A stretch of DNA of 33,853 nt from an uncultured Hyphomicrobiales bacterium. GTDB lineage: Bacteria; Pseudomonadota; Alphaproteobacteria; Rhizobiales; Beijerinckiaceae. The stretch lies in NCBI GenBank assembly GCA_903930675.1, contig CAIYZJ010000013.1, positions 1 through 33,853 on the forward strand, written 5' to 3'. The first letter of the stretch is position 1. Each line of letters opens with the position of its first letter. The notes under the pieces are model-generated. The model was not told the origin of the DNA. It did not search any database and saw only the letters and a program-made list of their open reading frames with translations. Both the position numbers and the translations under genes were made by a program. Below, one piece after another: positions 14,439 to 31,778 of this stretch.

Positions 14439-15338
14439 TTAGCGGTTCAATGCCGACAGGCGGCTGAAGCCATCGACACTGGCCAAAGGCGAGCCCAATT
14501 CAGCCTCGATCCCGAATTCGGCCAAAGCCAGTCTGTAGCGTTGCGCCAGAAAAGCATCGCCGACAATCAGCAACCGCCCTGTCACGGGGTAAGCCGCCAG
14601 CCCGTCCCTGATTTCATGCCCGATCAGCAAGCCGGACAAACGGCCCGCGCTGTCTTGCGCGTCCAGCTGCCCCAGCAAGACCCCGCTGCGGGTGGTAAAA
14701 ATATCATGCAGCAGACCGACCGTCTCGTTGCGGCTGACCTGACGGACGCCGTCGAGAAAAGCCTGCCCGTCGTTGTCGCTTGGTGCATCCACCATCAGAC
14801 GGCCCAGAATCGAATGGGTCTTGAGCACGCCGAACACTTCGCCCGTCATGAAACTGCTGAAGCGCTGCAAGGCCCCGTCCCGCACCGCGACCCATTTGCT
14901 GTGGGTGCCGGGCAGGATCACTGTGGCGGTCTCGTGCTCGCCGACCACGCCGAACACCTGTATTTCCTCCCCGCGCATCACATCGGGGGTCGGGCTGTGC
15001 ATGGCCACGCCGGGCAGGAAGTGCATGTTGACGCCGTTCTCCGCCTCCACCACCACGGCGGCTTTGGCCAGATCGGCCAAACGGGCGGGCGCTTCCACAT
15101 AGGGGGTTTCAATCCAGCCATTGCGGCTGGTGATCATGCCCGACAGGAAAATGTCCATGTCCGGGGTGATCCATGCGCCGATTTCACGCTGCAAAACGGC
15201 CGCAAAATCACGATCGGCAACGCCGAGGATACCGGCGGCGGCCTGATGGGTCTGTGCGACAGTGCCATCGGCTGCAAAACGGTAACAGCGGAAATTGCTG
15301 GTGCCCCAATCCACCACCAAACGGGCGCGTAGTGTCAT
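14439..15338 (-). CDS. dgoK: 2-dehydro-3-deoxygalactonokinase
   Basis: A 299-residue sugar-acid kinase of the DgoK family. The known reaction is ATP-dependent phosphorylation of 2-keto-3-deoxygalactonate in the De Ley-Doudoroff route. Motifs: VVDWGTSNFRCYRF at the N-terminus (phosphate-binding loop), LSGMITSRNGWIETPY, VMRGEEIQVFG and ILPGTHSKWV, all diagnostic. GGGAGA precedes ATG 15338. It starts 21 nt after the stop of the CoA ligase-RidA gene and appears to belong to that operon, which is odd. The partner aldolase dgoA and a galactonate dehydratase are not in the window. The family call is strong; the physiological role here is open. Confidence 0.85.
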   Translation of the reverse strand: MTLRARLVVDWGTSNFRCYRFAADGTVAQTHQAAAGILGVADRDFAAVLQREIGAWITPDMDIFLSGMITSRNGWIETPYVEAPARLADLAKAAVVVEAENGVNMHFLPGVAMHSPTPDVMRGEEIQVFGVVGEHETATVILPGTHSKWVAVRDGALQRFSSFMTGEVFGVLKTHSILGRLMVDAPSDNDGQAFLDGVRQVSRNETVGLLHDIFTTRSGVLLGQLDAQDSAGRLSGLLIGHEIRDGLAAYPVTGRLLIVGDAFLAQRYRLALAEFGIEAELGSPLASVDGFSRLSALNR

Positions 15339-15359: not shown

Positions 15360-17402
15360 CTATTCAGGCACCACCGCAGTGGCTTCGATTTCCACCAGTG
15401 CTTTGGTTTCCACCAGACGCACGACCTGCACAAGGGCCATGGCAGGATAATGCTTGCCGATCACATCCCGATAGGCTTTGCCGATCGCGCGCAATTGGCC
15501 GAGATAATCCCCGATATCGGTGACATACCATGTCAACCGCATCAGATGACGCGGTTCGGCCCCGCCGACCGCCAGAATATCGACGATGTTCTGCAAAGCC
15601 TGACGGGTTTGTTCGACCAGCCCTTCTGGGAACTGTTCCTTGGCATCCCAACCGACCACCCCGCCGGTCATGATCAGGCGGCCCTTGGCCATCATGCCGT
15701 TGGAATAGCCTTGCGGACGCGGCCAGCCTTTGGGCAGCAGCGAGATCGGTTCGACGTCCGGCAACACCTCGTCCCCCGCCCGAGTGCCCTGTGCGCGCTG
15801 GCGCAGCACAAAGCGTTGCAACTTGCCGGTTTCGGTCCGCGGCAAATGATCGACAAATTCGATCTCGCGCGGATATTTGTAAGGCGCGATATCGGCTTTG
15901 ACATAGTCTTGCAGGGTCTTGACCATCGCGCCATCGCCGGCAATGCCGGGCTTCAACACGATATAGGCTTTGACCACCATGCCGCGTTCGTCATCGGGCG
16001 CACCGACCACGCCGCATTCGGCCACGGCGGGATGGGTCAGCAACGAGGCTTCGACCTCGGGACCTGCGATGTTGTAGCCCGAGGAGACGATCATGTCGTC
16101 CGAACGCGCTTGATACCAGAAATAGCCGTCCTCGTCCTGCATGAAGCTGTCGCCCGTCATGTTCCAGCCATTGCGGACATAATTGGACTGGCGCGGATCA
16201 TCGAGATAGCGGCAACCGGTCGGTCCGCGCACCGCCAGCAGGCCGATGGTGCCGCGCGGCACGTCCTGCCCGTCGCCGTCCACCACCTTGGCCTCGTAAC
16301 CGGGCACGACAAGGCCCGTCGAGCCCGCACGGATTTTGTCATGCGGCGCGCCGATGAAAATATGCAGCATTTCGGTGGCCCCGATGCCGTCCATCAAGGA
16401 CATGCCGGTTGCCTTGTGCCAAGCGTCAAAGGTCGCCAGCGGCAAATGCTCGCCCGCCGAGACGCACAGGCGCAAGGAGGAGATGTCATGTTCGGACAGT
16501 TTGCCCAGCATGGCCCGATAGGCGGTGGGCGCGGTAAAGCACACAGTCGCCTTGAAGCGGGCAATGGCAGCCATCAGCGCATCGGGCGGGGTCTTGTCGA
16601 GCATGACGAAGGCGGCACCGATCCTGAGCGGAAACAGCACCAGACCGCCCAGCCCGAAGGTAAAGGCCAGCGGCGGCGAGCCGATAAACACATCCGAAGC
16701 CTGCGCCTTCAGCACCTGCGCGCCGTAGCAATCGCAAATCGCCAGCAAATCGCGGTGATAATGCATCGTGCCCTTGGGCTCGCCCGTGGTGCCGGAGGTA
16801 AAACCGATCAGGCAGACATCATCACGCGAGGTATCGACTGCCTGAAAATCCGGCAGGGCCTTGGCCATCAGGCTTTCAAGCGCATCGTCGCCATCATGCC
16901 CCCATGTCACGATGGTTTCGAGATCGGGACACAAAGCCTTGGCGGCTTCCAGTTCGCCGACCAGCCCATGATCGCACAAAGCCAGATGGATTTTGGCCTT
17001 TTTGATCGGATAGCTCAATTCCTTGGCCCGCAGCATCGGCATGGTTGCCACCACGATGCCACCGGCCTTGATGATCGCCAGATAGGCCGCCACCAGCATC
17101 GGCGTATTGGCCGAACGCAACAACACGCGATGCCCGCTTTTCATGCCGAAGGTCTGTGTCAGCACATTGGCGATGCGGTTGACCTGTGCGGCCAGCTCCC
17201 GATAGGTCCACCGGCCCTGATCCGACAGGATGCACGGCGCATCTCCCTTGCCCTGCTCCACCCAGTGATCCAGCAATTCACTGACCACGTTCAAACGGTC
17301 GGGATAGGCAAGACCGGCCTGTTCGAGCCGGAAATCCGGCATCATCCCGGGCTCTGGCAGGTTATCGCGGGCAAAACTGTCAAGATGCGCTGAAAACGTC
17401 AT
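15360..17402 (-). CDS. Aromatic acid-CoA ligase (2-aminobenzoate/benzoate type) fused to a C-terminal RidA domain
   Basis: A 680-residue two-domain protein in one uninterrupted frame. Residues about 1-540 are an ANL-superfamily ligase of the benzoate/2-aminobenzoate-CoA ligase group: P-loop GFTSGTTGEPKG, DGIGATEM (A5), WNMTGDSFMQDEDGYFWYQARSDDMI (A7) and the A10 lysine in RTETGKLQRF. Ligases of this group are about 540 aa. Residues about 550-680 are a RidA/YjgF domain, with the catalytic Arg at 662 (VVRLVETKALVEIEA) retained. RidA hydrolyses reactive enamines and imines. The fusion suggests that the acyl-CoA route yields an enamine intermediate, as the aminobenzoyl-CoA pathway would. GGAG lies 7 nt before ATG 17402, 18 nt after the acyl-CoA dehydrogenase stop. 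The substrate is inferred, not proven. Confidence 0.88.
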   Translation of the reverse strand: MTFSAHLDSFARDNLPEPGMMPDFRLEQAGLAYPDRLNVVSELLDHWVEQGKGDAPCILSDQGRWTYRELAAQVNRIANVLTQTFGMKSGHRVLLRSANTPMLVAAYLAIIKAGGIVVATMPMLRAKELSYPIKKAKIHLALCDHGLVGELEAAKALCPDLETIVTWGHDGDDALESLMAKALPDFQAVDTSRDDVCLIGFTSGTTGEPKGTMHYHRDLLAICDCYGAQVLKAQASDVFIGSPPLAFTFGLGGLVLFPLRIGAAFVMLDKTPPDALMAAIARFKATVCFTAPTAYRAMLGKLSEHDISSLRLCVSAGEHLPLATFDAWHKATGMSLMDGIGATEMLHIFIGAPHDKIRAGSTGLVVPGYEAKVVDGDGQDVPRGTIGLLAVRGPTGCRYLDDPRQSNYVRNGWNMTGDSFMQDEDGYFWYQARSDDMIVSSGYNIAGPEVEASLLTHPAVAECGVVGAPDDERGMVVKAYIVLKPGIAGDGAMVKTLQDYVKADIAPYKYPREIEFVDHLPRTETGKLQRFVLRQRAQGTRAGDEVLPDVEPISLLPKGWPRPQGYSNGMMAKGRLIMTGGVVGWDAKEQFPEGLVEQTRQALQNIVDILAVGGAEPRHLMRLTWYVTDIGDYLGQLRAIGKAYRDVIGKHYPAMALVQVVRLVETKALVEIEATAVVPE

Positions 17403-17420: not shown

Positions 17421-18599
17421 TTAGGCTTGTGGGCCGTGTTGACGCAAAATCTCGCGGGCGATGATCAATTTCTGGACCTCGGTCGCCCCCTCGTAAATCC
17501 GCAAGGCGCGGATGTCGCGATACAGCATCTCGACCCGCATGCCCGAGCGCACACCGAGACCGCCGAACAGTTGCACCGCTTTGTCGATCACGACTTGGGC
17601 ATGCTCTGTTGCGACCATTTTGGCCATGGCCGCCTCGCGGGTGATGCGTTCGGCGCCATTGTCCTTGGCCCATGCGGCGCGATAGACCAGCAAGGCGGCA
17701 GCATCCACATCGGTCGCCATTTCGGCCAGCGAGGCTTGGGCGAGCGGCAAAGCCGCCATGGGTTGACCGAACAAATGGCGGGTACTGACCCGCTCCATGG
17801 CTTCATCCAAAGCCCGTCGGGCAAAACCCAAGGCCGCCGCCCCCACGGTGGAACGGAACACATCGAGTGTGGCCATCGCGATCTTGAACCCTTCGCCGCC
17901 TTTGCCGATCTGGTTGGCCCGCGGGATCCGGCAATCATGGAAGCGCAAGCGTGCCAGCGGATGCGGGGCAATCACGTCGATCCGCTCGGCAATCTCCAGC
18001 CCTTCGGTATCGGCAGGCACGATGAAGGCCGACAGGCCGCGCGCGCCGGGGGCTTCGCCGGTGCGCGCGAACACGACGTAGAAATCGGCAATGCCGCCGT
18101 TGGAAATCCACATCTTCTCGCCATTCAGCCGGACATGGTCCGGCCCGTCCGGTGTGGCCGCGCAAGCAAGGGCTGCCACATCGGAGCCTGCTTCGGTTTC
18201 CGACAATGCAAAAGCCGCCAGACTTTTGCCCGCCACCACATCCGGCAAAAAGCGCTGTTTTTGTTCGTCTGTGCCGAACAGAGTGATCGGGCCGGAGCCC
18301 AAGCCCTGCATCGCAAAGGCAAAATCGGCCAAGCCGTCATGATAGGCCAGCGTCTCGCGCGACAGGCACAGCGAGCGCACATCATAGCCGGTGCCCTGCC
18401 CACCATAGGCGGCGGGAGCGACAGGCTTCAGCCAGCCGTCGCGCCCCAAAGCGGCAACCAGCTTGCGGCAGGAGCCGTCGACATCGTGATGGTCACTGAG
18501 CGCGGCAACGCGCTGTTGCGCCCATGAATCAAGCGATTGGCGCAAGGCCTTGTGTTGCGGGCCGAAAAACGGCCAGTCGAGAAAACTCTGATCCGCCAT
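17421..18599 (-). CDS. Acyl-CoA dehydrogenase
   Basis: A 392-residue FAD-dependent acyl-CoA dehydrogenase with the helical N-domain, central beta-domain ([15 protein letters not shown], then [20 protein letters not shown]) and helical C-domain. The catalytic base is present as Glu370 in [10 protein letters not shown], the MCAD-like position. It would oxidise an alicyclic or linear acyl-CoA at the alpha-beta bond and pass electrons to ETF. The ATG overlaps the crotonase stop by one base (TGATG), with GAGGGGG upstream. It belongs to the SDR-MarR-crotonase-ACAD-ligase-dgoK operon. Its position beside the CoA ligase implies work on the ring-reduced or ring-opened product. Confidence 0.88.
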
Positions 18600-19432
18600 C
18601 AATCCCCCTCGAACACAGGTTGGCTTTTATTGGCAAAGGCATGGAATGCCCGTGTAAAATCTTCAGTATGCATGCACAAAGCCTGCGCCACCGCTTCGGC
18701 CTCGATGGCATCATCGACCGACATGGCCCATTCCATCTGCATCATGCGCTTGGTCATGGCATGGGCGAAGGTCGGGCCTTCGCTGATCTCGCGGGCCATC
18801 GCCTGTGCTTCCTGCAGCAGGGCCTCGGGCTCGATCAGACGGTTGAGGAAGCCCCAACGCTCGGCCTCCTCGCCACGCAAGATCCGGCCTGTATAGAGCA
18901 ATTCGGAGGCCCGCCCCTGCCCGATAATGCGCGGCAGCATCGCACAGGCTCCCATGTCGCAACCGGCCAAGCCGACGCGGTTGAACAGAAAGGCCGTCTT
19001 GCTCTTGGCGGTGCCGTAGCGCAGATCGGACGCCATGGCGATGATCGCGCCCGCGCCCGCGCAAATGCCGTCAATGGCCGAGATGATCGGCTGCGGACAG
19101 GCGCGCATCAGTTTGACCAATTCACCCGTCATATGGGTAAAGGCCAGCAAGTCCTTGGTATTCATGGCAATCAGCGGCTGGATGATCTCGAACACATCGC
19201 CGCCCGAGCAGAAATTGCCGCCCGCCCCCGTCACCACCACCGCCTTGATCTCGTCATCCTTGTTGAGAGCCTGAAAGAAATCGGCCAATTCGCGATAGGA
19301 TTCAAAGGTCAGCGGGTTTTTCTTGTCGGGTCGATTCAAAGTCACCGTGGCGACTTTGCCGGTCACCGACAGATCGAAATGCGCGGGTTTGAACTGCGAC
19401 AGCGGAAAGGTAACGGCATTGGCAACGCGCAT
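18599..19432 (-). CDS. Enoyl-CoA hydratase/crotonase-family protein without the two crotonase glutamates
   Basis: A 277-residue crotonase-fold protein. The oxyanion-hole motifs are present (FCSGGDVFE and [12 protein letters not shown]). The two catalytic glutamates of crotonase are not: the Glu144 position is Ile130 and the Glu164 position is Arg152 (FLFNRVGL). Instead Asp159 sits in [15 protein letters not shown], in the area where other family members place a catalytic Asp. It is therefore unlikely to be a plain 2-enoyl-CoA hydratase; an isomerase or ring-opening hydrolase role fits the context. The ATG overlaps the MarR stop by one base (TGATG) and GGAG lies 9 nt upstream. Longer upstream in-frame starts run inside the MarR gene and were rejected. 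Confidence 0.82.
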
Positions 19433-19992
19433 CAGCGTGATCTCCGGCTCGATGGTTTTTTGACAACAGGTGCATCCGCTGCAGCCCCGTGCTGCGACAG
19501 ATCGGCTTGCAAAGAGGCTTTGGTCTTGGCCAGCAATTTCATCAGATTGCCGATGTCCTTGGCATTCAACCCGCCGAACATATTGGCAATCCACGCCTCG
19601 TGCGCCGAAGCCATGTCGCGGAAATTGGCGCGGCCCGTCTCGGTCAGCCGGATCAGCTGGGCACGGCGGTCATGTGCCGAGGTTTGCCGCTCGACATCCC
19701 CCGAAGCCACCAGATGTTCGACAATCAGCGTGACATTGCCGCTCGAGACCATCATGCGCTTGGACACTTCCGACATCATCATGCCGTCGGACGCCCGATA
19801 GAGCTGGGCCATCAGATCGAAGCGCGGCAGCGTCACATCATATTCGGCCCTCAGCCGTGATCTGATCTGCCCCTCGATCATATTGGTGCAGGTCAGCAGG
19901 CGCAGCCACAACCGCAACTCGTCCTGATGGGCGTGGCCCACCTCGGTTCCCGCCGTTTCGGCGTCCAGCAAGGGCGTGGGTTGATCACTCAT
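19432..19992 (-). CDS. MarR-family transcriptional regulator
   Basis: A 186-residue MarR-type winged-helix protein: dimerisation helices at both ends, HTH around residues 70-100 ([24 protein letters not shown]) and a wing with [16 protein letters not shown]. The C-terminal tail is basic (KKPSSRRSR). MarR proteins in aromatic-CoA operons are commonly repressors released by the CoA thioester, which is the likely mode here (inference). The ATG overlaps the SDR stop (ATGA, 19989-19992). The 26-bp palindrome at 20841-20866 upstream of the SDR gene is the obvious candidate operator, implying autoregulation of the operon. Confidence 0.88.
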
Positions 19993-20762
19993 GCGATGCT
20001 TTCTCCGCCATCAACCACCACGCCCTGCCCGTTGATCGCCGAGGCCAGCGGATCGGCCAGCATCACCACGGCAAAGGCCACCTCGGCTGGCTCGACCAGA
20101 CGGCCGAGCGGTTTTTTGGAGACGAATTTGGCCAATACCTCTTCCGGCGTCTGTCCGGTTTTGCGGGCAGTGTCGGCCATGGATTCAAGGATCAGACCGG
20201 TGGCGGTAAAGCCGGGGCAGACGGCATTGACGGTGACGCCCTTTTTGGCCACTTCAAGCGCCAGAGCCCGCGTCAGGCCCAAAATGGCATGTTTGGCCGC
20301 CACATAGGCCGCCACCCCCTGATAGCCCTGCACAGAGGCCGTCGAGCCGATATTGATGATGCGCCCGAAGCCTTTGGCCAGCATGGCGGGCAGCAGCAGG
20401 CGCGACAATTCCGCGGGGGCAGCCAGATGCTGGGCCGTCATGGCGGCAAAAGCGGCCGGGTCCTGTTTGGCAAAAGGCGCCGAAATGGCCGTGCCCGCAT
20501 TGTTGACCAGAATATCGAACTGTTTCCCCGCCATCAGGGCGGCCAGCGCATCGAGATCGGTGACATCGGCGCTGATTTGGTGTTTGGCCGCCCCATTCCG
20601 GACCGCCTCGTCGAGAGAGGCCGCATGGCGGCCCATGATGGTCACCCCGCAGCCGGCTTGGGTCAAAGCCTGCGCAATCGCCAGACCGATCCCGCGGCTG
20701 CCGCCGGTGACCAAGGCAGACAACCCCGCCAAACGCTGTTGTCCCTCACGCTGACCAGACAT
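19989..20762 (-). CDS. Short-chain dehydrogenase/reductase
   Basis: A 257-residue classical SDR: cofactor motif TGGSRGIG near the N-terminus, NNAG, the active-site Ser in INIGSTAS and YVAAK supplying Tyr and Lys, then CPGFTATGL. It is an NAD(P)-dependent alcohol/ketone oxidoreductase, probably acting on a 3-hydroxyacyl-CoA or ring keto intermediate of the pathway. It is the first gene of the operon. I prefer ATG 20762 over the in-frame TTG 20768. The gene begins about 80 nt downstream of the palindromic operator. Confidence 0.87.
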   Translation of the reverse strand: MSGQREGQQRLAGLSALVTGGSRGIGLAIAQALTQAGCGVTIMGRHAASLDEAVRNGAAKHQISADVTDLDALAALMAGKQFDILVNNAGTAISAPFAKQDPAAFAAMTAQHLAAPAELSRLLLPAMLAKGFGRIINIGSTASVQGYQGVAAYVAAKHAILGLTRALALEVAKKGVTVNAVCPGFTATGLILESMADTARKTGQTPEEVLAKFVSKKPLGRLVEPAEVAFAVVMLADPLASAINGQGVVVDGGESIA

Positions 20763-20840
20763 ATCCAAGCCCGCCTTTCAATGCGTTTCTGCCGTCGGAC
20801 AGAACAAGGCACCGGCCTTGCTCAACCCCGTCGACCTCTC

Positions 20841-21900: not shown

Positions 21901-24216
21901 TCAGCCCCGATCGATCAGTTCCACCAGATCCTGCGGTGACAAAGGATGGCTGCCCAACCGCACATGGAAAGGCGACAGAGCATCTTCGATGGCCGAAATG
22001 ACGCAGGCTGCGGCGGGAATCGTGCCGCCTTCGCCTGCCCCCTTCACACCGATCGGATTGCGCGGTGACGGGGATTCCATGTGGACGATCTCGATGCGCG
22101 GCATTTCGGTGGCCAGCGGCAGCAGATATTCGCCGTAATTGGTGGTCTGCGGCTGGCCGTTCTCGTCATAGATCATCCGCTCGAACAGCGCATTGCCGAT
22201 GCCGTGCACCACGCCGCCCCTGATCTGGCCATCGACCAGCATCGGGTTGATCAGCGTGCCGCAATCATGGGCTACGACATAACGCAGGATCTTGACCGCG
22301 CCGGTTTCGATATCCACCTCGACCTCGCACAGATTGGTGCCATTGGCGAAAGTGGTCTGGCGCGCCTCGTAAAAGGCGGTGGCCGACAGGCCGGGCGCAA
22401 TGCCTGCGGGCAAAGGCTGCCCGAAATTGCCGTGCAGCATCAAGGCCAGTTGCCCGAGCGAGACCTGACGGTCGGTTCCGGACACTTTGACAAAGCCGCC
22501 TTCGAGCACCAGATCGGCCTCTTGCGCTTCCAGCACCTGCGAGGCCACCTTGATCGCCTTGGCGCGGGTTTCCACCGCCGCCATATGCACCGAGGAGCCG
22601 CCCGTCACCGCCACGCGGCTGGCAATCGTGCCGATGCCGAGCGGAAACAGCGAGGTATCGCCCGCTTCCACCGTGATGTCCTGCGGGGTGATGCCGAGCT
22701 GGTCGGCGGCAATCTGGGCAAACACGGTTTTGTGGCCCTGCCCCTGTGCCGCAGCCCCTGTCAGCAACAGCACCTTGCCATTGGGCTGCACGCGGATGGT
22801 GGCCCCCTCGTAAGGGGCCAGACCGGTATCTTCGACATAAGAAGCGATGCCCATGCCGATATAGCGGCCTTCGGCGCGCGCTTTGTCCTGACGGGCCTTG
22901 AAATCGGACCCGAATTTGGCGACCGCCAGATCAAGACATTGCACATAATCGCCCGAGTCATAGGACACAGGCGAGCCGTCACGCGCTTTCATACCGGTTT
23001 CATAGGGAAACTGGCTGACTTGAACGAAGGAACGGCGACGGACATCCTCGCGGGAGATCCCCAATTCCCGCGCCACCCGATCGGCCAAACGTTCGAGCAC
23101 GAAACAGGTATTGGGACGCCCCGCCCCGCGCACCGGCGTATTGGGCACCATATTGGTGTAGATCACATCAATGCTGATCTCGAGCGCTTCGAGCGCATAG
23201 GGACCGGGGAAAGACGACATCGACGTCACCGGCAGCACCACGCCGTAGGGCAGATAGGCCCCGTTGTCATGCAGGCAATGGCCGCGCACGCCGAGCATGC
23301 GGCCTTGCGCATCGGCGGCGACTTCCAGCTCCCACAACTGGTCGCGCTGCTGGGTGGTGGCCACGAAATGCTCGCCGCGATCCTCGACCCATTTCAACGC
23401 ACGGCCCAAATGGCGCGCCGCCATCGGGATCGCATAATCTTCGGCATAGACCACCGCTTTGGGGCCGAACCCGCCGCCGACATCGGGGGCTGTCACCCGC
23501 ACCGAGGCCTCGTCCATGCCAAGGCAAAGAGCCAGAGCACGCCGCACCATGTAGGGCGACTGGGTCGAACTCCAGATATCGATCCGGTTGCCCGACGGAT
23601 CGGGCCGCGCCATGACACCGCGACATTCCATCGCATGACAGCCGCCGCGATGCAGCGACAGGCTTTCCTTGAACACATGCGCCGCTTTGGAGAACACGCC
23701 CGCGACATCGCCGAAGCCGCCTTTCAGCGTACCGGCCAGATTGCTTTGCAACGCCTGATTGGCCACGGCCGCGCCCTCATTCAAGGCATGGGCCAGATCG
23801 ACCATCGCAGGCAGCGGATCGTAATCGACCATCACCATCGCGGCCGCATCTTCGGCAACCGCACGGCTTTCGGCCACAACCAGAGCCACCGCCTCGCCGA
23901 CATAATGGACCGAGCCATGGGCCAGCGGGCTTTGGGTCAAGGGGGTTTTGACCATCGGCGCGGGGGCCATCATCGGCATCGGCTTGCGGGCCATCTCGCC
24001 GAGATCGTCGGCCGTCAGCACTGCCACCACACCGGCATGCCCGCGCGCCATCGAGGTATCGATGGCGTTGATCAGGGCATGGGCATGGGGCGAACGCACC
24101 ACCGCCACATGCAGTACGCCGGGCATGGCGATATCATCGAGATACTGGCCGCGTCCGGTGATCAGCTTGGGATCTTCCAGCCGTTTGACAGCGGCTCCGA
24201 AATAACGTGCACCCAT
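21901..24216 (-). CDS. Molybdenum hydroxylase large subunit (xanthine oxidase/form II CoxL-like)
   Basis: A 771-residue Moco-binding subunit beginning with the typical GARYFGAAVKRLEDPKLITGRGQY. The active-site loop reads PVRGAGRPN around residue 359, which is the form II (aldehyde oxidase/hydroxylase) pattern and not the Cys-containing AYRCSFR of true CO dehydrogenase, so CO oxidation is very unlikely. The catalytic Glu is Glu729 in KGAGEGGTIP, and GGGFGPK and GAAAQGQGHKT contribute to Moco binding. The enzyme would hydroxylate an aromatic or N-heteroaromatic ring or oxidise an aldehyde, using water. ATG 24216 has GGGGAG 9 nt upstream and starts 1 nt after the FeS-subunit stop. It is last in the GntR-CoxG-FAD-FeS-Mo series. 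Confidence 0.9.
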   Translation of the reverse strand: MGARYFGAAVKRLEDPKLITGRGQYLDDIAMPGVLHVAVVRSPHAHALINAIDTSMARGHAGVVAVLTADDLGEMARKPMPMMAPAPMVKTPLTQSPLAHGSVHYVGEAVALVVAESRAVAEDAAAMVMVDYDPLPAMVDLAHALNEGAAVANQALQSNLAGTLKGGFGDVAGVFSKAAHVFKESLSLHRGGCHAMECRGVMARPDPSGNRIDIWSSTQSPYMVRRALALCLGMDEASVRVTAPDVGGGFGPKAVVYAEDYAIPMAARHLGRALKWVEDRGEHFVATTQQRDQLWELEVAADAQGRMLGVRGHCLHDNGAYLPYGVVLPVTSMSSFPGPYALEALEISIDVIYTNMVPNTPVRGAGRPNTCFVLERLADRVARELGISREDVRRRSFVQVSQFPYETGMKARDGSPVSYDSGDYVQCLDLAVAKFGSDFKARQDKARAEGRYIGMGIASYVEDTGLAPYEGATIRVQPNGKVLLLTGAAAQGQGHKTVFAQIAADQLGITPQDITVEAGDTSLFPLGIGTIASRVAVTGGSSVHMAAVETRAKAIKVASQVLEAQEADLVLEGGFVKVSGTDRQVSLGQLALMLHGNFGQPLPAGIAPGLSATAFYEARQTTFANGTNLCEVEVDIETGAVKILRYVVAHDCGTLINPMLVDGQIRGGVVHGIGNALFERMIYDENGQPQTTNYGEYLLPLATEMPRIEIVHMESPSPRNPIGVKGAGEGGTIPAAACVISAIEDALSPFHVRLGSHPLSPQDLVELIDRG

Positions 24217-24217
24217 T

Positions 24218-24721
24218 TCAATGATCTCCCCGCATGCGAGATGCCGCCTGCAAGGCCGCATCGACAATGGTCTCGTAACCCGTGCAACGGCAGATATTGC
24301 CGGAAATGGCCTCGCGGATTGCCGTCTCGTCCAAAGTCGGATCGGCCTCGAGCACCGCGGCCAGCGTCGTCACCATGCCGGGCGTGCAAAAGCCGCATTG
24401 CAGGCCGTGCTTGTCCCAAAACGCCTCTTGTACCGGATGCAGCGTACCATCGGCCTGCGCCAGTCCTTCGATGGTGCGGATGGTCGCGCCATTGGCCTGG
24501 ACCGCCAGCATCAGACAGGAGCGGATCGGCTGGCCATCCAGAATGATCGTGCACGCGCCGCAGACGCCGTGCTCGCAGCCCAGATGCGTGCCTGTCAGGC
24601 CCAATTCCTGCCGCAAAAAATCGCCCAGATGGGTGCGGGTCAAGACGTCGCGTTCGTAAACGGTGCCGTTGACCGTCACGCTGATGTGACGGGTTGTTTG
24701 TGCGTGGTCGAGTTCAGACAT
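24218..24721 (-). CDS. Molybdenum hydroxylase small [2Fe-2S] subunit
   Basis: A 167-residue iron-sulfur subunit with two [2Fe-2S] clusters. The plant-ferredoxin-type cluster uses Cys49, Cys54, Cys57 and Cys69 (GCEHGVCGACT...RSC). The second uses Cys109, Cys112, Cys144 and Cys146 (CGFC...CRC). It carries electrons from Moco to FAD. ATG 24721 overlaps the FAD-subunit stop by 8 nt (ATGTCTGA), supporting coupled translation. An upstream in-frame start at 24751 would lie deeper inside the FAD gene and is less likely. Confidence 0.92.
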   Translation of the reverse strand: MSELDHAQTTRHISVTVNGTVYERDVLTRTHLGDFLRQELGLTGTHLGCEHGVCGACTIILDGQPIRSCLMLAVQANGATIRTIEGLAQADGTLHPVQEAFWDKHGLQCGFCTPGMVTTLAAVLEADPTLDETAIREAISGNICRCTGYETIVDAALQAASRMRGDH

Positions 24722-25598
24722 TCCGGCCTCCCGTGGCGCGGTTGAGGGCATCGCTCAAGGCCCGTTTGGTCATTGTTTGCGCCAGACGCCCGCGATAGGC
24801 CGGCGTGATATGGGCATCTTCCATCATCTCGATGGTGGCAGCCATGGCAGAGACTGTCCCGATCAAGGCCTGATCGAGCACGTGCCCCACCAGAGCCTGT
24901 TCGGCCACGGCAAGCCGCACCGGTTTTACGTCCACCCCTGCCAGCGCAATCGACGCACGGCGAACCACGCCGCCCGCATCCAGCGACACAAGGGCCGCAG
25001 CCGCAACAATCGCATAATCACCATGCCTGCGGGCAAATTCATGGAAACCATGGCCGATGGTCTGCCCCTGGGCGGACCAGACAGGCAGGGTCAGGCCGAG
25101 CAAAGCCTCGTCGGGCTCCAGATTCGGGGTCATATAGGACATGACCCAATCGCGCATGGCGACATCACGGGGCCCGCGCGGACCCGACACATGCAGCACC
25201 GCATCATAAAGGGCGGCAATGCAGGGCTGTTCGGCCGCAGGATCGAGATGGCACAGACTGCCGCCGATGGTGCCGCGGGCACGGGTTTGCACATGGCCGA
25301 CCCAATGCAGTGCCTCGGCCAGAACGGGAGCATGTTCGAGCACCAGAGGATGCTCGCGCACGATCCGCTGGCGGGTCATCGCACCGATCCGCAGCCCCTG
25401 AGGCGTCATCACCACCTCTGCCAGACCGGCAATGTGGTTGATGTCGATCACATGGTCGGGAAAGGCATAGCGCATGTTCAGCATCGGCATCAGCGATTGC
25501 CCGCCTGCCAGAATACGGACATTGTCGAGTGAGCCGAGCAGACTGTTCAGCTCCTGCACGGTTTTGGGATCATGATAGGCAAAGGCCGAGGCTTTCAT
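24714..25598 (-). CDS. Molybdenum hydroxylase FAD-binding (medium) subunit
   Basis: A 294-residue CoxM/CutM-like flavoprotein. The FAD motifs are AGGQSLMPMLNMRYAFPDHVIDI near residue 33 and RGTIGGSLCHLDPAAEQP near residue 110. It takes electrons from the FeS subunit and passes them to an acceptor. ATG 25598 follows AAAGGG; it is 26 nt downstream of the CoxG-like gene and overlaps the FeS gene by 8 nt. The M-S-L order is the usual one for CoxMSL-type enzymes. No XdhC-type Moco chaperone is in the window. Confidence 0.9.
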   Translation of the reverse strand: MKASAFAYHDPKTVQELNSLLGSLDNVRILAGGQSLMPMLNMRYAFPDHVIDINHIAGLAEVVMTPQGLRIGAMTRQRIVREHPLVLEHAPVLAEALHWVGHVQTRARGTIGGSLCHLDPAAEQPCIAALYDAVLHVSGPRGPRDVAMRDWVMSYMTPNLEPDEALLGLTLPVWSAQGQTIGHGFHEFARRHGDYAIVAAAALVSLDAGGVVRRASIALAGVDVKPVRLAVAEQALVGHVLDQALIGTVSAMAATIEMMEDAHITPAYRGRLAQTMTKRALSDALNRATGGRNV

Positions 25599-25624
25599 CA
25601 GTAAAACCCTTTCAAGCGCGACAC

Positions 25625-26254
25625 TTACTGGCCGGATTGGTTTTTGCGGGAGAACAGGGATTTGATCACACCCCATAACAGGGCGAAGGCCGACAATTCA
25701 CGGATCGGGGCCACGGGGGCCGTGGTGGTCACGGAGGCAACATCGGCATCACCGGTTGGCCGGTCCGTGGCGGCAGCCGATGCCGAAACGCCCTCTTGCG
25801 AGCGGGCCAGAATGTCGCTGCGCAGGTTGGCGGCAAATTGTTCGACGATCTGGTTGGCGATTTCCTTGATCAAGCCCTGTGCGCGGCCATATTGGGCCAC
25901 CGCACCGACCAGCTGCAAATCCGTCACCACCGTGATCAGCGTGCCTTCGCCTTCGGCCACAAGCGCGAAATCGGCGGTGGCCGAGGCACTGCCGCGCCCC
26001 TTGGCATCGGCCCCTTTGGCGATGACGCGGGCGGTATGGGCCGTATCGTCAATGTCTGTAATCTGCGCCTCACCCGCAAAGGTCAGCTGCACCGGACCGA
26101 CTTTCACCGTGGCTTGGCCCTTGTAGCGGTTGTCTCCCAGATCGGCCGTCAGCGAGGCCCCGGGCAGGCAGGGCACAATGCGCGGCACATCCAGCAACAA
26201 AGGCCAGGCCTGTTGCGGCGGAACCGGAACCGAAAAGCTCACATCGATTTTCAT
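25625..26254 (-). CDS. CoxG-like SRPBCC-domain protein
   Basis: A 209-residue protein with an N-terminal SRPBCC/CoxG domain (about 1-150: FSVPVPPQQAWPLLLDVPRIVPCLPGA, then GQATVKVGPVQLTFAGEA), a low-complexity Ala/Thr linker and a C-terminal hydrophobic segment (about 185-200, FALLWGVIKSLFS) with basic residues after it. In CO dehydrogenase systems CoxG recruits the enzyme to the membrane; the C-terminal anchor seen here fits that. It stands directly before the three hydroxylase genes. AAGGAT precedes ATG 26254. Confidence 0.85.
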   Translation of the reverse strand: MKIDVSFSVPVPPQQAWPLLLDVPRIVPCLPGASLTADLGDNRYKGQATVKVGPVQLTFAGEAQITDIDDTAHTARVIAKGADAKGRGSASATADFALVAEGEGTLITVVTDLQLVGAVAQYGRAQGLIKEIANQIVEQFAANLRSDILARSQEGVSASAAATDRPTGDADVASVTTTAPVAPIRELSAFALLWGVIKSLFSRKNQSGQ

Positions 26255-26276
26255 GAAAAGATCCTTGTTGGCAAAG

Positions 26277-26966
26277 TCATGGCAGGATTGACGCGCTGGA
26301 CAAAGCCCGCATCACCCGCTTTTCGGCGCGTCCGACATGCTGTGTCAGCAATTTGCCCGCCTTGCGGCCATCGCGCGCCTGCAAGGCGTCGATAATGGCA
26401 CAATGCTCGGACAGCAGGCTGTCATAATTGCGGCGGTCAAACACGGTCACACTCAATTGCACCAGACGGTCGAATTGTTCGATCAGATCGACAGCCGTTT
26501 CGGCCACCCGACGATTGGGACATAGGGCCAGCACGGCAAAATGGAAGGCCCGGTTATAGGCGACAAAGCCTGCCTCGCCCCATGCGCCCAGTGTGCGGAA
26601 ACGGTCCAGCGCCTTCAGGTCCTCATCGCCGGCCTGTTCGGACGCCGTCATGGCGCAATGCTGCTCCAGCACCGCGCGGAATTCGAACAATTCGCGGGCA
26701 TCGACCAGCGAGACCGGGGCCACGCGATAGCCCTTGCGCGGCTCGACCGTCACCAGCTTTTCGGCATGCAGCCGCGACAGCGCATCGCGAATCGGGGATT
26801 TGCTGACCGAATAGGTCTCGGCCAGCACGCCTTCATAGAGCGGTGTACCGGGCGCAAGTGCGCATGACAGGATATCCTGCCTGATCCGCGCATAGACGGC
26901 CTCGCGGCGAAGACCCGTCACTGGCCCCGTCACTGGCGACATCCCCTCATGAACAGCCTCTGTCAT
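26277..26966 (-). CDS. GntR-family (FadR/FCD subfamily) regulator
   Basis: A 229-residue GntR protein: winged HTH at about residues 20-85 (AVYARIRQDILSCALAPGTPLYEGVLAETYSVSKSPIRDALSRL... in order), then an all-helical FCD ligand domain with metal-site-type residues (FEFRAVLE, NRAFHFAVL, HCAIIDAL, THV-like QHVGRAE). FCD regulators usually bind organic acids and are released from DNA by them. It is first in the minus-strand operon, 22 nt before the CoxG gene, and divergent from the ABC importer. It is therefore the natural regulator of both the hydroxylase and the uptake system. Confidence 0.88.
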   Translation of the reverse strand: MTEAVHEGMSPVTGPVTGLRREAVYARIRQDILSCALAPGTPLYEGVLAETYSVSKSPIRDALSRLHAEKLVTVEPRKGYRVAPVSLVDARELFEFRAVLEQHCAMTASEQAGDEDLKALDRFRTLGAWGEAGFVAYNRAFHFAVLALCPNRRVAETAVDLIEQFDRLVQLSVTVFDRRNYDSLLSEHCAIIDALQARDGRKAGKLLTQHVGRAEKRVMRALSSASILP

Positions 26967-27145: not shown

Positions 27146-28381
27146 ATGCTCAATCGTCGTCAATTTGCTCTTGGTATTGCCGCTGTTGCCGGTGCTTCGG
27201 GCGCGATCAAGGGGGCTGCGGCCCAGACCGGCCCGATCCGCGTCGGCTTTCTGACCGTCAATTCGGGCGCACTTGCCGCCGGTGGCCGACAGCTCGAAGA
27301 AGGCATCAAGCTGTTTCTCAAGCAGCGTGACAACAAGATCGGCGGCCGTCCCGTCGAACTGATCATCGCCGACACCGCCGGACAGCCCGCCAACACCCGC
27401 ACCAAGGCGCAGGAATTGATCGAGCGCAACAATGTGCATGTGATCATCGGCCCGCTGGCGGCTTTCGAGGCTTTGGCCATCAACGACTATATCCAGCAGG
27501 TCGGCATCCCGACCATCTCGGATTCGGCTGCCGCCGAAGACCTGACCCAGCGCAAATTGAACCCGTGGTTTGTGCGCGCAGTCAGCAGCTCGGCCCAGCC
27601 AGCCCATGCTTTGGCCGATTATGCCGCTAAAACGCTGAAATACAAGAAAATCGCGATTGTTGCCGATGACTTCGCCTTCGGCCACGAAATCTCGGCCGGT
27701 TTCCAGCGCGTGTTCGAGGAAAACGGCGGCAAGGTGCTGCAAAAGCTGTGGTCGCCGCTCAATGTAGCCGATTACGGCTCCTACATCACCCAGATCGACC
27801 GTTCGGCCGATGCCGTGCTGGCCAATTTCGCCGGTGCCAACGGCTTGCGCTTCATCAAGCAGTATAACGAATACGGCCTGTCGGGCACGATCCCGCTGTT
27901 GGGCCATATGACGACAATCGACGAAGGCATCCTGAAAAACATGGGTGACGAGGCCAAGGGCGTTGTCTCGACCGGCTGGTATTCGGCCGCCATCGACACC
28001 CCTGCCAACAAGGAATTCGTGACCGCCTGCCGCGCCGAATACAAGGCCGATCCCGGCTATTACACGCTGGGTGCCTATCTCTCGGGCATGTTCCTGGAAG
28101 AAGCCGTTAAAAAGGTCAACGGCAATGTCGAGGACAAGACCGCTTTGATGAAGGCTCTGCGCAATATCGACCTGAAGGACACGCCGGCCGGTCCGATCAA
28201 AATCGACGAATACGGCAATCCGACCATGAACATCTATATCCGCAAGGTGGAAACGGTTGACGGCCGTTTGATGAACAAGGTCATCCATACCTATCCGTCG
28301 GTCAGCCAGTTCTGGACCTATGATCCGAAAACCTTCCTGCAAAGCCCCGTCTATGCCCGCGAATGGGCTGTGAAGGGCTAA
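27146..28381 (+). CDS. ABC importer substrate-binding protein (branched-chain amino acid/aromatic acid type)
   Basis: A 411-residue periplasmic binding protein of the Peripla_BP_6/LivJ family. The N-terminus has a twin-arginine-like signal, NRRQFALG followed by a hydrophobic Ala/Gly stretch and a cleavage site near AAA-QT (about residue 27), suggesting Tat export. The mature part starts IRVGFLTVNSGALAAGG, with GGRPVELIIADTAGQPANT and VIIGPLAAFEA. Family members bind Leu/Ile/Val, urea, or aromatic acids (benzoate, coumarate); the catabolic setting favours an aromatic or heteroaromatic acid. It is the first gene of a seven-gene operon and divergent from the GntR regulator. A stable hairpin follows it. 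Confidence 0.9.
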   Translation: MLNRRQFALGIAAVAGASGAIKGAAAQTGPIRVGFLTVNSGALAAGGRQLEEGIKLFLKQRDNKIGGRPVELIIADTAGQPANTRTKAQELIERNNVHVIIGPLAAFEALAINDYIQQVGIPTISDSAAAEDLTQRKLNPWFVRAVSSSAQPAHALADYAAKTLKYKKIAIVADDFAFGHEISAGFQRVFEENGGKVLQKLWSPLNVADYGSYITQIDRSADAVLANFAGANGLRFIKQYNEYGLSGTIPLLGHMTTIDEGILKNMGDEAKGVVSTGWYSAAIDTPANKEFVTACRAEYKADPGYYTLGAYLSGMFLEEAVKKVNGNVEDKTALMKALRNIDLKDTPAGPIKIDEYGNPTMNIYIRKVETVDGRLMNKVIHTYPSVSQFWTYDPKTFLQSPVYAREWAVKG

Positions 28382-28407
28382 CAGACCTTCTCCGGTTTTC
28401 ACCTCTC

Positions 28408-28440
28408 GCGACGGATCGGCAGCGATGTCCGGTCCGTCGC
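28408..28440 (+). other. Stable intercistronic hairpin between binding protein and permease genes
   Basis: GCGACGGA (28408-28415) pairs with TCCGTCGC (28433-28440); the stem extends by a G-U and three more pairs to about 12 bp with a 7-9 nt loop. There is no U-run after it. Such hairpins often raise expression of the binding protein over the downstream membrane genes by mRNA stabilisation or partial termination. Confidence 0.55.
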
Positions 28441-28473
28441 CCATTCTGACCCCATCACCATAAAGGTTCGCTG

Positions 28474-29340
28474 ATGTCGATCGGCTTCTGGCTGCTGCAA
28501 AGCCTGAACGCGCTGGCGCTGGGCGGGCTGTTGTTTCTGCTCTCCTCCGGCTTTTCGCTGATTTTCGGCCTGATGCGGGTCGCCAATCTCAGCCATGGCG
28601 CTTATTTCATGCTCGGGGCCTATGTCGGCCTGTCGGTGCTGCAAGCCGGCTTTGGCTTCATCGAGGCCATTCTGGCCGCTGGCGTCGTGATTGCCGTGCT
28701 GGGCGGCTTGATCGAACGGTTCCTGCTGCGCCGTCTAGCCAACCGCACGCTTGCACAGGTGCTGGTGACGCTGGGACTGGCTTTCGCGATTGCCGATATC
28801 TGCCTGATGCTGTGGTCGGGTGACCCGATGCAACTGCCCGCCCCGCGCTGGCTGTCGCAACCGATCCGCGCCTTCGGCTTTGTGTTTCCCGGCTATCGGG
28901 TGTTTGTGGTCGAGGTGTCGATTGTCGTGGCCATTCTGCTGTGGCTGCTGATCGAACGCACCAAGCTGGGCGCGATGGTGCGCGCCAGCGTCGACGATAT
29001 CCAGATGGCACGCGGCGTCGGTATTCCCGCGCAAAAACTGTTCAGCTTCATCTTCTGTCTCGGTGCCGCTCTGGCGGGCATGGGCGGTGTGCTGGGCGGG
29101 CCGATCCTGTCGGTCTATCCCGGTCTTGACGGCGAAATGCTGCCTCTCGCGCTGGTTGTGGTGATTCTGGGCGGGATCGGCAGCATCGGCGGGGCCTTTG
29201 TCGGCGCCTATATCACCGGCTTTGTCTACACCTTCGGCCAGACCCTGTTGCCCGCCTTTTCCTATGTGATCCTGTTTCTGCCGATGATCGTGGTTTTGGC
29301 GTTCCGTCCGAGCGGCCTGTTTGGAAAGTCCGCGCCATGA
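28474..29340 (+). CDS. Branched-chain-type ABC importer permease (LivH-like)
   Basis: A 288-residue inner-membrane permease with about 8 helices. Family features are NALALGGLLFLLSSGFSLIFGLMRVANLSHGAYFMLGAY at the start and, near the C-terminus, VVVILGGIGSIGGAFVGAYITG, the ATPase-coupling area. ATG 28474 follows AAAGG. It overlaps the LivM-like gene by 4 nt (ATGA). It forms the membrane pore with that protein. Confidence 0.92.
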   Translation: MSIGFWLLQSLNALALGGLLFLLSSGFSLIFGLMRVANLSHGAYFMLGAYVGLSVLQAGFGFIEAILAAGVVIAVLGGLIERFLLRRLANRTLAQVLVTLGLAFAIADICLMLWSGDPMQLPAPRWLSQPIRAFGFVFPGYRVFVVEVSIVVAILLWLLIERTKLGAMVRASVDDIQMARGVGIPAQKLFSFIFCLGAALAGMGGVLGGPILSVYPGLDGEMLPLALVVVILGGIGSIGGAFVGAYITGFVYTFGQTLLPAFSYVILFLPMIVVLAFRPSGLFGKSAP

Positions 29341-30311
29341 CCCGCAAATCCCGCATCACCCTGATCAGCCTGAGCCTGCTGATCCTCGCGCTGGCGGCTC
29401 CGCTGCTGATGGGCCAGCCTTTCTATATCAATATCGGCTCGCAAGTGCTGATTGCCGCCATTTTTGCCATGAGCCTGAATATTCTGGTCGGTTATGGCGG
29501 CATGACCTCGATCGGGCACGCCGCCTATCTCGGCACCTCGGCCTATGTCGTGGCCCTGCTGACCTTGCAGCACGGTTTCGGTTTCTATACGGCCTCGTTG
29601 GTGGCGCTGGGGGTGGTTGTCATCATGGCGGCGATATTCGGGGCGATCGCGCTGCGCGGCACCGGCATTACCTTTTTGATGATCACGCTGGCTCTGGGCC
29701 AGACCATGTGGGGCGTGGCGTTTCGCTGGTCGGAAGTGACAGGCGGCGACAACGGCCTGCCCGATATCAAACGACCCGATCTGTTCGGCTTGAATCTGGT
29801 GGAACCGGGCCTGTTCTATGGCGTGATGATCGCCTTGTTCGTGATCGCGCTGGTGGGCATGTGGATTTTCACGCAATCGGGCCTTGGCCTGAGCCTGCAA
29901 GGCACGCGGGATCAGCCGCGCCGTATGGGCATGCTGGGCCATCACGTCTGGCTGGTGCGCTGGATCGCCTTTATCATTGCCGGCTTCTGGGCGGGCGTCG
30001 CGGGCATCGCCTTCATCGGCTATCACGGCTATATCCACCCGCTGTCGCTGGGACTGGCCAATTCCGCCGAAGTGCTGCTGATGGTGATTGCCGGAGGCGC
30101 GGGCACGCTGTTGGGCCCCGTGGTGGGTGCGGCCATTGTGGTTGTGCTGAAAATGGTGGTCAGTGCCTATGTGTCGCGCTGGGTGCTGTTGCTGGGCTGC
30201 ACCTTTGTGGCGATTGTGATCCTGCTGCCCGAAGGCGTCGTGCCGGGGCTAGAGCGGTTGCTGAAAGCCATTCTGCCTGCTGCGCGTGACGACGAGGAGG
30301 CAAGCTCATGA
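29337..30311 (+). CDS. Branched-chain-type ABC importer permease (LivM-like)
   Basis: A 324-residue permease with about 9-10 helices. It has LNILVGYGGMTSIGHAAYLG, TLALGQTMWGVAFRWSEVTGGDNGLP and VIAGGAGTLLGPVVGAAI, all LivM signatures. The ATGA overlaps at both ends (29337-29340 with LivH, 30308-30311 with LivG) show tight translational coupling. The short acidic C-terminal tail (RDDEEASS) is cytosolic. Confidence 0.92.
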   Translation: MTRKSRITLISLSLLILALAAPLLMGQPFYINIGSQVLIAAIFAMSLNILVGYGGMTSIGHAAYLGTSAYVVALLTLQHGFGFYTASLVALGVVVIMAAIFGAIALRGTGITFLMITLALGQTMWGVAFRWSEVTGGDNGLPDIKRPDLFGLNLVEPGLFYGVMIALFVIALVGMWIFTQSGLGLSLQGTRDQPRRMGMLGHHVWLVRWIAFIIAGFWAGVAGIAFIGYHGYIHPLSLGLANSAEVLLMVIAGGAGTLLGPVVGAAIVVVLKMVVSAYVSRWVLLLGCTFVAIVILLPEGVVPGLERLLKAILPAARDDEEASS

Positions 30312-31054
30312 CCACCGAACTTGCGCTGCAAATCACCGGAATGACCAAAAATTTCGGCGGGCTGAAGGCCATCGACGGCGTCAACCTGACTATCCCCAAA
30401 GGCGATCGCCGCCTGCTGCTCGGCCCCAACGGCGCGGGCAAAACCACGCTGTTCAACCTGATCACCGGAGATCTGAAACCGACCTCGGGCAGCGTGCAAC
30501 TGTTTGGCCGCGACATTACCGGCCTGCCCTCGCACCATTGCGCCCCGCTCGGGCTGGCCCGCACCTACCAGATCATCACCTTGTTTCCCAAAAACACTCT
30601 GGCAGACAATGTGATCCTGTCGCTGCTGGGCATTTCGCCGCTGCGCTGGAGCCCGATCAGCCGCATCAAGGGCCGCAAGGAGTTCGAGGAGCGCGCCCGC
30701 GCAGCCCTCAAGCAAGTGGGACTGGAAGCCAAGGCCGACCGCCCCTTGGGCGAGACCTCCTATGGCGAAAAGCGCCGGTTGGAAATCGCGCTGGCTCTGG
30801 CGCAAAACCCGAGCCTGCTGTTGCTGGACGAACCGCTGGCGGGCCTGTCGCGGCAGGAACGGCTGGATGTGCAGTCCCTGATTGAATCGATCCCGCGCGA
30901 TATCACGCTGATCCTGATCGAGCACGATATGGATGTGGCTCTGGCTTTGGCCGACAGCATCACCGTCATGTATCACGGGCGGGTGATTTGCGAGGGGGAT
31001 CGCGCACAGGTTGTGGCCGATCCGCGCGTCAAGGAGATCTACCTTGCAAGCTGA
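30308..31054 (+). CDS. Branched-chain-type ABC importer ATPase (LivG-like)
   Basis: A 248-residue ABC ATPase. Walker A is GPNGAGKTTLFN (about residue 39), the signature is TSYGEKRRLEIALAL, a mild variant of the usual LSYG motif, and Walker B is LLLLDEPLAGL, followed by the switch His in LIEHDMDVAL. LARTYQIITLF carries the Q-loop. It overlaps the LivF-like gene by 11 nt if that gene starts at TTG 31044. Confidence 0.92.
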   Translation: MTTELALQITGMTKNFGGLKAIDGVNLTIPKGDRRLLLGPNGAGKTTLFNLITGDLKPTSGSVQLFGRDITGLPSHHCAPLGLARTYQIITLFPKNTLADNVILSLLGISPLRWSPISRIKGRKEFEERARAALKQVGLEAKADRPLGETSYGEKRRLEIALALAQNPSLLLLDEPLAGLSRQERLDVQSLIESIPRDITLILIEHDMDVALALADSITVMYHGRVICEGDRAQVVADPRVKEIYLAS

Positions 31055-31775: not shown

Positions 31776-31778
31776 TCC

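Follow-up and report, generated by a model that had tools for sequence, protein, structure and literature searches.

An anthranilate-type CoA ligase fused to an arginine-less Rid domain in a Beijerinckiaceae bacterium: a candidate bifunctional enzyme of the 2-aminobenzoyl-CoA pathway

The fused gene, its domains and its distribution

We analysed a stretch of 33,853 nucleotides (the window; contig CAIYZJ010000013.1, positions 1 to 33,853, assembly GCA_903930675.1) from an uncultured Hyphomicrobiales bacterium of the family Beijerinckiaceae. At positions 15360-17402 it contains a single open frame of 680 codons, in which a 2-aminobenzoate-type aryl-CoA ligase is joined to a Rid domain that carries a methionine in place of the catalytic arginine (Met-type Rid). 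The original prediction for this DNA had described one frame of this length and left its strand unstated; the frame was borne out and lies on the minus strand, as do all of its features given below. Its annotation is based on the open reading frame, Pfam and TIGR02262.

The ligase part comprises residues 1-536 (15795-17402). Pfam detected AMP-binding at residues 46-395 (E 4.6e-75) and AMP-binding_C at residues 449-527 (E 3.8e-24), both over the cut-off, and the benzoate-CoA ligase family TIGR02262 gave a full-length match across residues 36-535 with 384.8 bits against a cut-off of 375.25. The nearest solved structure by sequence is the anthranilate-CoA ligase 4wv3 with 343.7 bits, compared to 271.8 bits for the benzoate-CoA ligase 2v7b. 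The translation shows the P-loop TSGTTGEPKG at residues 202-211 (16770-16799) and the A10-type lysine K527 (15822-15824), a residue with a functional role in ANL ligases, which was invariant in alignment A3 (34 rows: 4 fused proteins and 30 ligases). The ligase is thus a complete ANL ligase with both motifs, as had been proposed. It is followed by a linker at residues 537-556 (15735-15794) and by the Rid (YjgF/YER057c/UK114) domain at residues 557-680 (15363-15734). For the latter the domain search gave a match to Ribonuc_L-PSP (Rid, PF01042) at residues 565-678 with an E of 8.5e-18 and 64.9 bits against a cut-off of 27.3, so that Rid similarity is present past residue 550.

The linker also stands out in the selection profile. 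We computed the ratio of nonsynonymous to synonymous substitution rates (dN/dS) pairwise by NG86 among four fused genes (6 pairs). The ratios were 0.07-0.12 in the ligase and 0.04-0.08 in the Rid part, and they rose to 0.13-0.34 in the 20-codon linker. The low ratios in ligase and Rid indicate that both are maintained as working proteins, with a looser linker between them. The reading frame runs through the junction of the domains without a stop, as it does in three more assemblies from the genus, whose fused genes are 89-92% identical; the fusion is therefore not an assembly error. The same stop-free frame in four genomes of the genus together with the purifying selection rules out an assembly or frameshift artefact.

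All structure models were computed for monomers; RidA is a homotrimer whose active site lies between the subunits. The model of the Rid domain reached a predicted local distance difference test score (pLDDT) of 96.9 and a predicted template modelling score (pTM) of 0.91, and its best Foldseek matches were structures of the Rid family, with 22-33% identity among the 50 matches listed. Most of the listed Rid structures superposed loosely (TM about 0.7, root mean square deviation (rmsd) about 11). A close superposition was obtained with 5v4f (TM 0.84, rmsd 2.1), which has Asn at the Arg105 site. In the full-length model the pLDDT dropped below 50 at residues 540-553 and the Rid region was of low confidence too. 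As only 4 of the 34 rows of A3 are full-length fusions, we draw no conclusion on the arrangement of the domains. A mixed alignment (A4), with ligases and Rids as separate rows, was discarded because it had spread the ligases across the Rid region.

The fusion occurs in four of the five genomes of the genus. The fifth gave no match at E<=1e-100, and outside the genus no fusion was found in any genome sampled. For the family sample (119 genomes) we detected the ligase in 49 genomes (E<=1e-150) and a stop-free match over residues 1-680 only in members of the genus (n = 3 there), while in the order sample (150 genomes) the window was the sole stop-free 1-680 match among the matches listed. We then read the junctions of the window and 32 further loci. 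The genes are fused in the window, L087, L088 and L089; 24 of the remaining 29 loci have a separate Rid and five have none within the short stretch examined. In the relatives the Rid is mostly a gene of its own just 3' of the ligase. This survey of fused versus separate genes is in line with the earlier statement that loci of 2-aminobenzoate-CoA ligases often carry the Rid as a separate gene, which is the normal state.

Many full-length matches in the first search had suggested that the fusion is widespread. The frames showed separate genes or no nearby Rid in 22 of the 24 loci of the species collection and a fusion in L001 and L002 only, whose coordinates suggest that they correspond to G151 and G152. 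At L057 ligase and Rid lie in different frames. As a second check we asked which Rid matches lie within an open frame of about 650 residues, the length that a fused gene would need. Across the 54 family and 54 phylum genomes listed, such frames were found only in the genus itself, in G206 (785) and in G254 (797), and reading of the latter two showed no fusion. For G207 we observed a match over residues 3-680 with one internal stop: the ligase ends with CGT TGA and the ATG of the Rid is the next codon in the same frame. Starting from such a layout, the loss of one stop codon and small length changes would yield the fusion. The pathway's own Rid may have been joined to the C-terminus of the ligase in this way, when the stop codon of the ligase was lost.

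Methionine at the Arg105 position and co-occurrence with ACMR

The original prediction had placed an intact RidA domain after residue 550 and its catalytic Arg at residue 662. The domain stood, the catalytic residue did not. Met655 (15438-15440) occupies the position of the catalytic Arg105 of E. coli RidA, whereas Arg662 (15417-15419) aligns with E. coli Arg112, is not conserved (Arg in 13 of the 40 sequences reaching that position) and was rejected as the catalytic Arg. With a conserved Met in place of this Arg, the domain is not an intact canonical RidA. The register was read against what we take to be the E. coli RidA reference sequence, and the PDB alignments give the same one (ypAMalv vs ypARStf, kPARVAV). 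Tyr566 (15705-15707), the equivalent of RidA Tyr17, and Glu671 (15390-15392), the equivalent of RidA Glu120, were both invariant in alignment A1.

Among the clade sequences, which were not thinned for close relatives and consist of 59 rows of A1 (window included) and 25 further members of the family, the Arg105 site was Met in 84 of 84. The same was true for all five plasmid copies, three of which are actinobacterial with 34-38% identity and include pAL1 of Arthrobacter sp. Rue61a. As the sequences were picked by similarity to the window Rid and by pathway, this count speaks for conservation and not for specificity. Five other Rids of the same genome served as controls: four have Arg and one has Ser. 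Furthermore, the window Rid missed the cut-off of TIGR00004 (RidA) with 51.4 against 106.25 bits. Rid paralogues with Ser at the site were also seen in G035, G112 and G143 (L204, L205 and L207; genus g39), genomes that have a Met-type Rid as well.

The 2-aminobenzoyl-CoA monooxygenase/reductase (ACMR) of the own draft genome (304 contigs) does not lie on the window contig. We located it at G000:C175:10482-12749, with 1100.2 bits against a cut-off of 1078 for NF006101. Its two halves match FAD_binding_3 (FAD monooxygenase) and Oxidored_FMN (old-yellow-enzyme), an architecture which we take to be that of the 2-aminobenzoyl-CoA monooxygenase/reductase of Azoarcus evansii. In annotated records the NCBI name of this protein is bifunctional salicylyl-CoA 5-hydroxylase/oxidoreductase.

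The occurrence of the Met-type Rid follows that of ACMR closely. Within the family sample we found ACMR in 50 genomes (E<=1e-250) and the Met-type Rid in 51 (E<=1e-50), and all 49 genomes with the ligase hold both. Two extra Rids (G159, G187) adjoin an ACMR that is broken at the end of a contig. At E<=1e-30 the Rid was detected in 54 genomes of the family, the three extra ones forming a weaker group (genus g112). For the phylum sample (349 genomes) the counts were 55 for ACMR (E<=1e-200) and 54 for the Rid (E<=1e-25): the Rid was present in 54 of the 55 genomes with ACMR and in none of the 294 others. The pattern also holds within a genus, as in g4, where G117 and G254 have both ACMR and Rid and G197, G230 and G513 have neither. 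The Rid still tracks ACMR where it is separated from the ligase by megabases or sits on another contig, as in G157 and G166.

Pathway assignment and proposed role of the Rid part

Based on the ligase family, the nearest structure, the pathway context, the co-occurrence and an assayed relative, we infer 2-aminobenzoate as the substrate of the ligase. It probably starts the aerobic 2-aminobenzoyl-CoA (anthranilate) route, and we assign the gene to this pathway with considerable confidence. This agrees with the original prediction of a ligase of the 2-aminobenzoyl-CoA locus type, with an enamine expected downstream of 2-aminobenzoyl-CoA. The assayed relative belongs to plasmid pAL1, where ligase and ACMR share a cluster with a Rid that has Met at the Arg105 position. 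The pAL1 ligase, which we matched to the published gene by gene order, was expressed and active on anthranilate (PMC3534580). In anthranilate-grown Arthrobacter Rue61a a CoA ester of C7H8O4 was reported, for which the authors suggest cyclohexanedione-carboxyl-CoA (PMC3534580). This is the product expected once ammonia is lost. The word 'deaminase' does not occur in the main text of that paper.

On balance we lean, by a small degree, towards reading the fused gene as a bifunctional enzyme of the aerobic 2-aminobenzoyl-CoA pathway that would combine a ligase with a deaminase-type Rid. The N-terminal ANL part would activate 2-aminobenzoate to its CoA thioester, ACMR would convert 2-aminobenzoyl-CoA to an enamine and the Met-type Rid would release ammonia from this enamine. 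In RidA, Arg105 binds the carboxylate of the ligand and its loss nearly abolishes imine hydrolysis (PMC4433059, PMC8113886). The proposed substrate is reported to be an enamine, and as its carboxyl group is already a CoA thioester, a carboxylate-binding Arg would be needless. The hydrophobic Met would suit a thioester substrate, and Tyr and Glu are kept. For the deaminase role of the Met-type Rid taken by itself we see the chances as even or slightly better. A further step would be to regard it as a new Rid enzyme, an Arg-independent deaminase specific for CoA-thioester enamines and the missing ammonia-releasing enzyme of the pathway. This we put forward tentatively and with somewhat less conviction.

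Two mechanisms had been offered for the fusion, channelling and detoxification of the enamine. Detoxification by RidA chemistry cannot simply be carried over, because a conserved Met replaces the catalytic Arg. Substrate channelling is doubtful from the order of the pathway: the Rid is attached to the ligase, and the enamine would come from ACMR, which is encoded on another contig. As the proposed third step is thus linked to the first enzyme and not to ACMR, direct channelling is not the natural reading. The fusion may simply keep two proteins of the pathway at a 1:1 ratio, and a shared complex with ACMR would also be a natural interpretation.

Several observations weigh against the proposed deaminase. 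The Arg-less Rids that have been tested had no deaminase activity and the substitution R104A kills RutC (PMC4433059, PMC8113886), and no precedent for an Arg-less deaminase was found in the literature examined. The enamine is reported to be unstable below pH 5 (PMC3534580), and judging from this instability it may be hydrolysed without an enzyme. A possible uncatalysed reaction does not exclude an enzyme, as RutC speeds up a step that was once presumed to be spontaneous (PMC8113886). Salicylate as a substrate of the ligase may also be compatible with its sequence. Kynureninase was detected in none of the 10 clade genomes examined, and we therefore rejected kynurenine as the source of anthranilate in the clade; on one Arthrobacter plasmid kynU lies a few genes from the anthranilate cluster. 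The co-occurrence itself has its limits. G538 has ACMR and no Rid was detected in the 20 kb around it. Per genome only the best first-look candidates were scored (in the phylum sample at most 12 for the Rid and at most 2 for ACMR). Fisher tests on the co-occurrence gave p <=2e-31, a value that treats related genomes as independent; as they are not, we place weight on the pattern and not on p. For the ACMR of G538 (L200, G538:C229) a TAG stop was reported inside the match, and this may be a decaying copy or a variant.

Furthermore, a second tier of Met-type Rids occurs in G175, G211, G240 and G531 (loci L201-L203 and L206); the 15 kb surrounding each of them contained neither ACMR nor a closely similar ligase. 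As second-tier Met Rids occur in other contexts, we rejected the idea that Met strictly marks the ACMR pathway. The second-tier Rid of G531 (L206 7282-7707) lies among genes of a solute ABC transporter. Further along are genes for an epimerase, a PfkB kinase and a thiolase, together with a distant AMP-binding gene (26.5% identical). G531 has ACMR and a top-tier Rid elsewhere in its genome.

There are several other possible explanations for the Rid part. The one that survives best, though we consider it unlikely, is a non-catalytic Rid that trimerises three ligases, or that binds CoA esters of the pathway and tunes the ligase. It is consistent with the missing Arg, reported as essential in the tested Rid deaminases (PMC4433059, PMC8113886), with the typically trimeric state of Rid proteins (PMC4433059) and with the position of the Rid, within the ligase protein here and mostly next to the ligase gene elsewhere. 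The invariant equivalents of Tyr17 and Glu120 speak against a pure scaffold, and the Rid tracks ACMR even where it is far from the ligase (G157, G166), which fits a metabolic step better.

We give a clearly smaller chance to a Rid that guards against a side product of ACMR, for example the quinone-imine of 5-hydroxy-2-aminobenzoyl-CoA when NADH is short. While 5-hydroxyanthraniloyl-CoA has been reported as a by-product when NADH is limiting (PMC3534580) and Rid proteins have a general role in damage pre-emption (PMC4433059), the formation of the quinone-imine would itself have to be assumed. The near-obligate pairing of Rid and ACMR fits a step of the main route at least as well.

The NCBI name of ACMR suggests a salicylate pathway (salicylyl-CoA to gentisyl-CoA) to which the role of the Rid would be unrelated. 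We consider this very improbable. The salicylate route offers no nitrogen to remove, yet the Rid accompanies ACMR in all but one of the ACMR genomes, and the combination of FAD and old-yellow-enzyme halves is presumably that of the A. evansii ACMR. In addition the assayed pAL1 ligase acts on anthranilate (PMC3534580). Least probable of all is the chance fusion of an ordinary RidA whose role is to clear 2-aminoacrylate-type imines: the domain is over the cut-off of PF01042, but its Arg105 is Met, its TIGR00004 score is less than half of the cut-off, the genome encodes four further Rids with the Arg and the distribution follows ACMR.

Returning to the proposed deaminase, we compared the Met-type Rid to known members of the family. 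With canonical RidA/TdcF (YjgF) it shares the family, the fold class and the equivalents of Tyr17 and Glu120, but it has Met where these have Arg105, which is needed for imine hydrolysis. RutC (3-aminoacrylate deaminase) is likewise a Rid for one step of one catabolic operon (PMC8113886). In contrast to the window Rid it keeps the Arg and acts on a substrate with a free carboxylate, and the window Rid matches the RutC profile only weakly (24 against 169.1 bits). The 2-aminomuconate deaminase AmnE is a Rid whose enamine substrate stems from an aromatic ring (PMC6742747); unlike the window Rid it keeps its Arg (Arg117). AmnE was matched by profile (E 9.3e-7) and was not among the single-sequence matches at E<=1e-5. 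COG251 enamine deaminases have been predicted in benzoate and catechol regulons of Betaproteobacteria (PMC6449761), and the accessible part of that regulon paper does not treat the 2-aminobenzoyl-CoA pathway.

A further parallel is offered by Rid4-Rid7, in which the Arg is missing and the Glu is kept as in the Met-type Rid (PMC4433059). Rid4 and Rid7 have Trp at the Arg site and Rid5 and Rid6 are variable, compared to Met here, and according to the literature no activity is known for these Arg-less groups (PMC4433059, PMC8113886). Within the open-licence literature, in which older Rid names were searched in part, we found no paper that links RidA to the 2-aminobenzoyl-CoA pathway. For A. evansii, Schuhle et al. 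(2001) reportedly listed a 'putative translation inhibitor protein', an old name for Rid, with no reaction given.

What is new here is the fusion, in one genus, of two pathway genes that are normally adjacent. Of greater interest is the Rid itself, which lacks the Arg and is bound to a pathway: one Arg-less Rid group is tied to a defined catabolic step, with an enamine lacking a free carboxylate as its plausible substrate. If the proposal is true, it would be the first activity for an Arg-less Rid, built in one genus into the first enzyme of the pathway, and it would fill the ammonia-releasing step, for which we found no assigned enzyme in the accessible parts of the open-licence literature. 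With this group, the question of what Arg-less Rids do becomes directly testable. At the same time the case cautions against naming a Rid domain 'deaminase' from annotation alone.

Operon and neighbouring genes

The fused gene is part of a minus-strand operon with the order short-chain dehydrogenase (SDR), MarR, enoyl-CoA hydratase (ECH, PRK08258), acyl-CoA dehydrogenase (ACAD), ligase-Rid and kinase, in which adjacent genes overlap by 1-4 bases or are at most 21 bases apart. The ACAD (17421-18599, Pfam) lies 18 bp upstream of the fused gene and is 62% identical to the Paracoccus denitrificans cluster gene; PADLOC gave no match for it. The ECH family protein (18599-19432; NF006107, 466.6 against 330 bits) overlaps each of its neighbours by one base. 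The MarR family regulator (19432-19992) and the SDR (19989-20768, exact start uncertain) were both assigned by Pfam and are frequent neighbours. A 2-keto-3-deoxygalactonokinase-like gene (14439-15338; Pfam DGOK, E 4.5e-87) follows 21 bp downstream of the fusion.

We compared this arrangement to 19 selected wider loci of up to about 20 kb. The Rid was present in 18 of them, MarR in 17 (on the opposite strand in some), ACMR in 16, SDR in 15, ECH in 13, ACAD in 12 and the kinase in 2. The deoxygalactonokinase-like gene stays with the fusion in L001 and L002. The ligase of the window thus clusters with ECH, ACAD, SDR and MarR, as do its relatives, and we take this cluster to be a hallmark of the pathway, as presumably in A. 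evansii, whose cluster we believe to contain beta-oxidation-type genes and a MarR gene as well. In P. denitrificans PD1222 one row holds ACMR, SDR, MarR, ECH, ACAD, a thioesterase, Rid, ligase and a branched-chain-type ABC transporter, so that beta-oxidation-type genes and a MarR gene stand together as in the window operon. Plasmid pAL1 also has a ligase, ACMR and a Rid, there in one cluster. The window differs from these anthranilate clusters in that the Rid is inside the ligase protein and ACMR is on another contig. The stretch of pAL1 that we read contains PaaX-type regulators, a member of the fumarylacetoacetate hydrolase family and a cupin gene, compared to MarR, SDR, ECH and ACAD in the window.

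Among the loci of the survey, a contig labelled Bacillus subtilis SK6B4 was identical to Pseudochrobactrum asaccharolyticum in layout, in scores and in the sequence of the Rid (L007, L008). This identity suggests that the Bacillus record is mislabelled or contaminated.

Two further gene sets were observed in the window. At 27146-32561 on the plus strand, about 6 kb from the anthranilate operon, we found an operon for a branched-chain-type ABC transporter, which encodes a binding protein, two permeases and two ATPases and, after these, an alpha/beta hydrolase, in the same order of gene classes as downstream of the P. denitrificans cluster. The transporter parts are 30-45% identical to those of P. 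denitrificans and the hydrolase shows no significant similarity; the transporter may be an uptake system or a coincidence. Upstream of the operon, at 21901-26966 on the minus strand, lies a molybdenum hydroxylase set (large, FeS and FAD subunits) with a CoxG-like gene and a GntR regulator. The large subunit scored 806.9 and thus stayed under 950, the cut-off of CO dehydrogenase group 5. On pAL1, too, a xanthine-dehydrogenase-type hydroxylase lies near the anthranilate genes.

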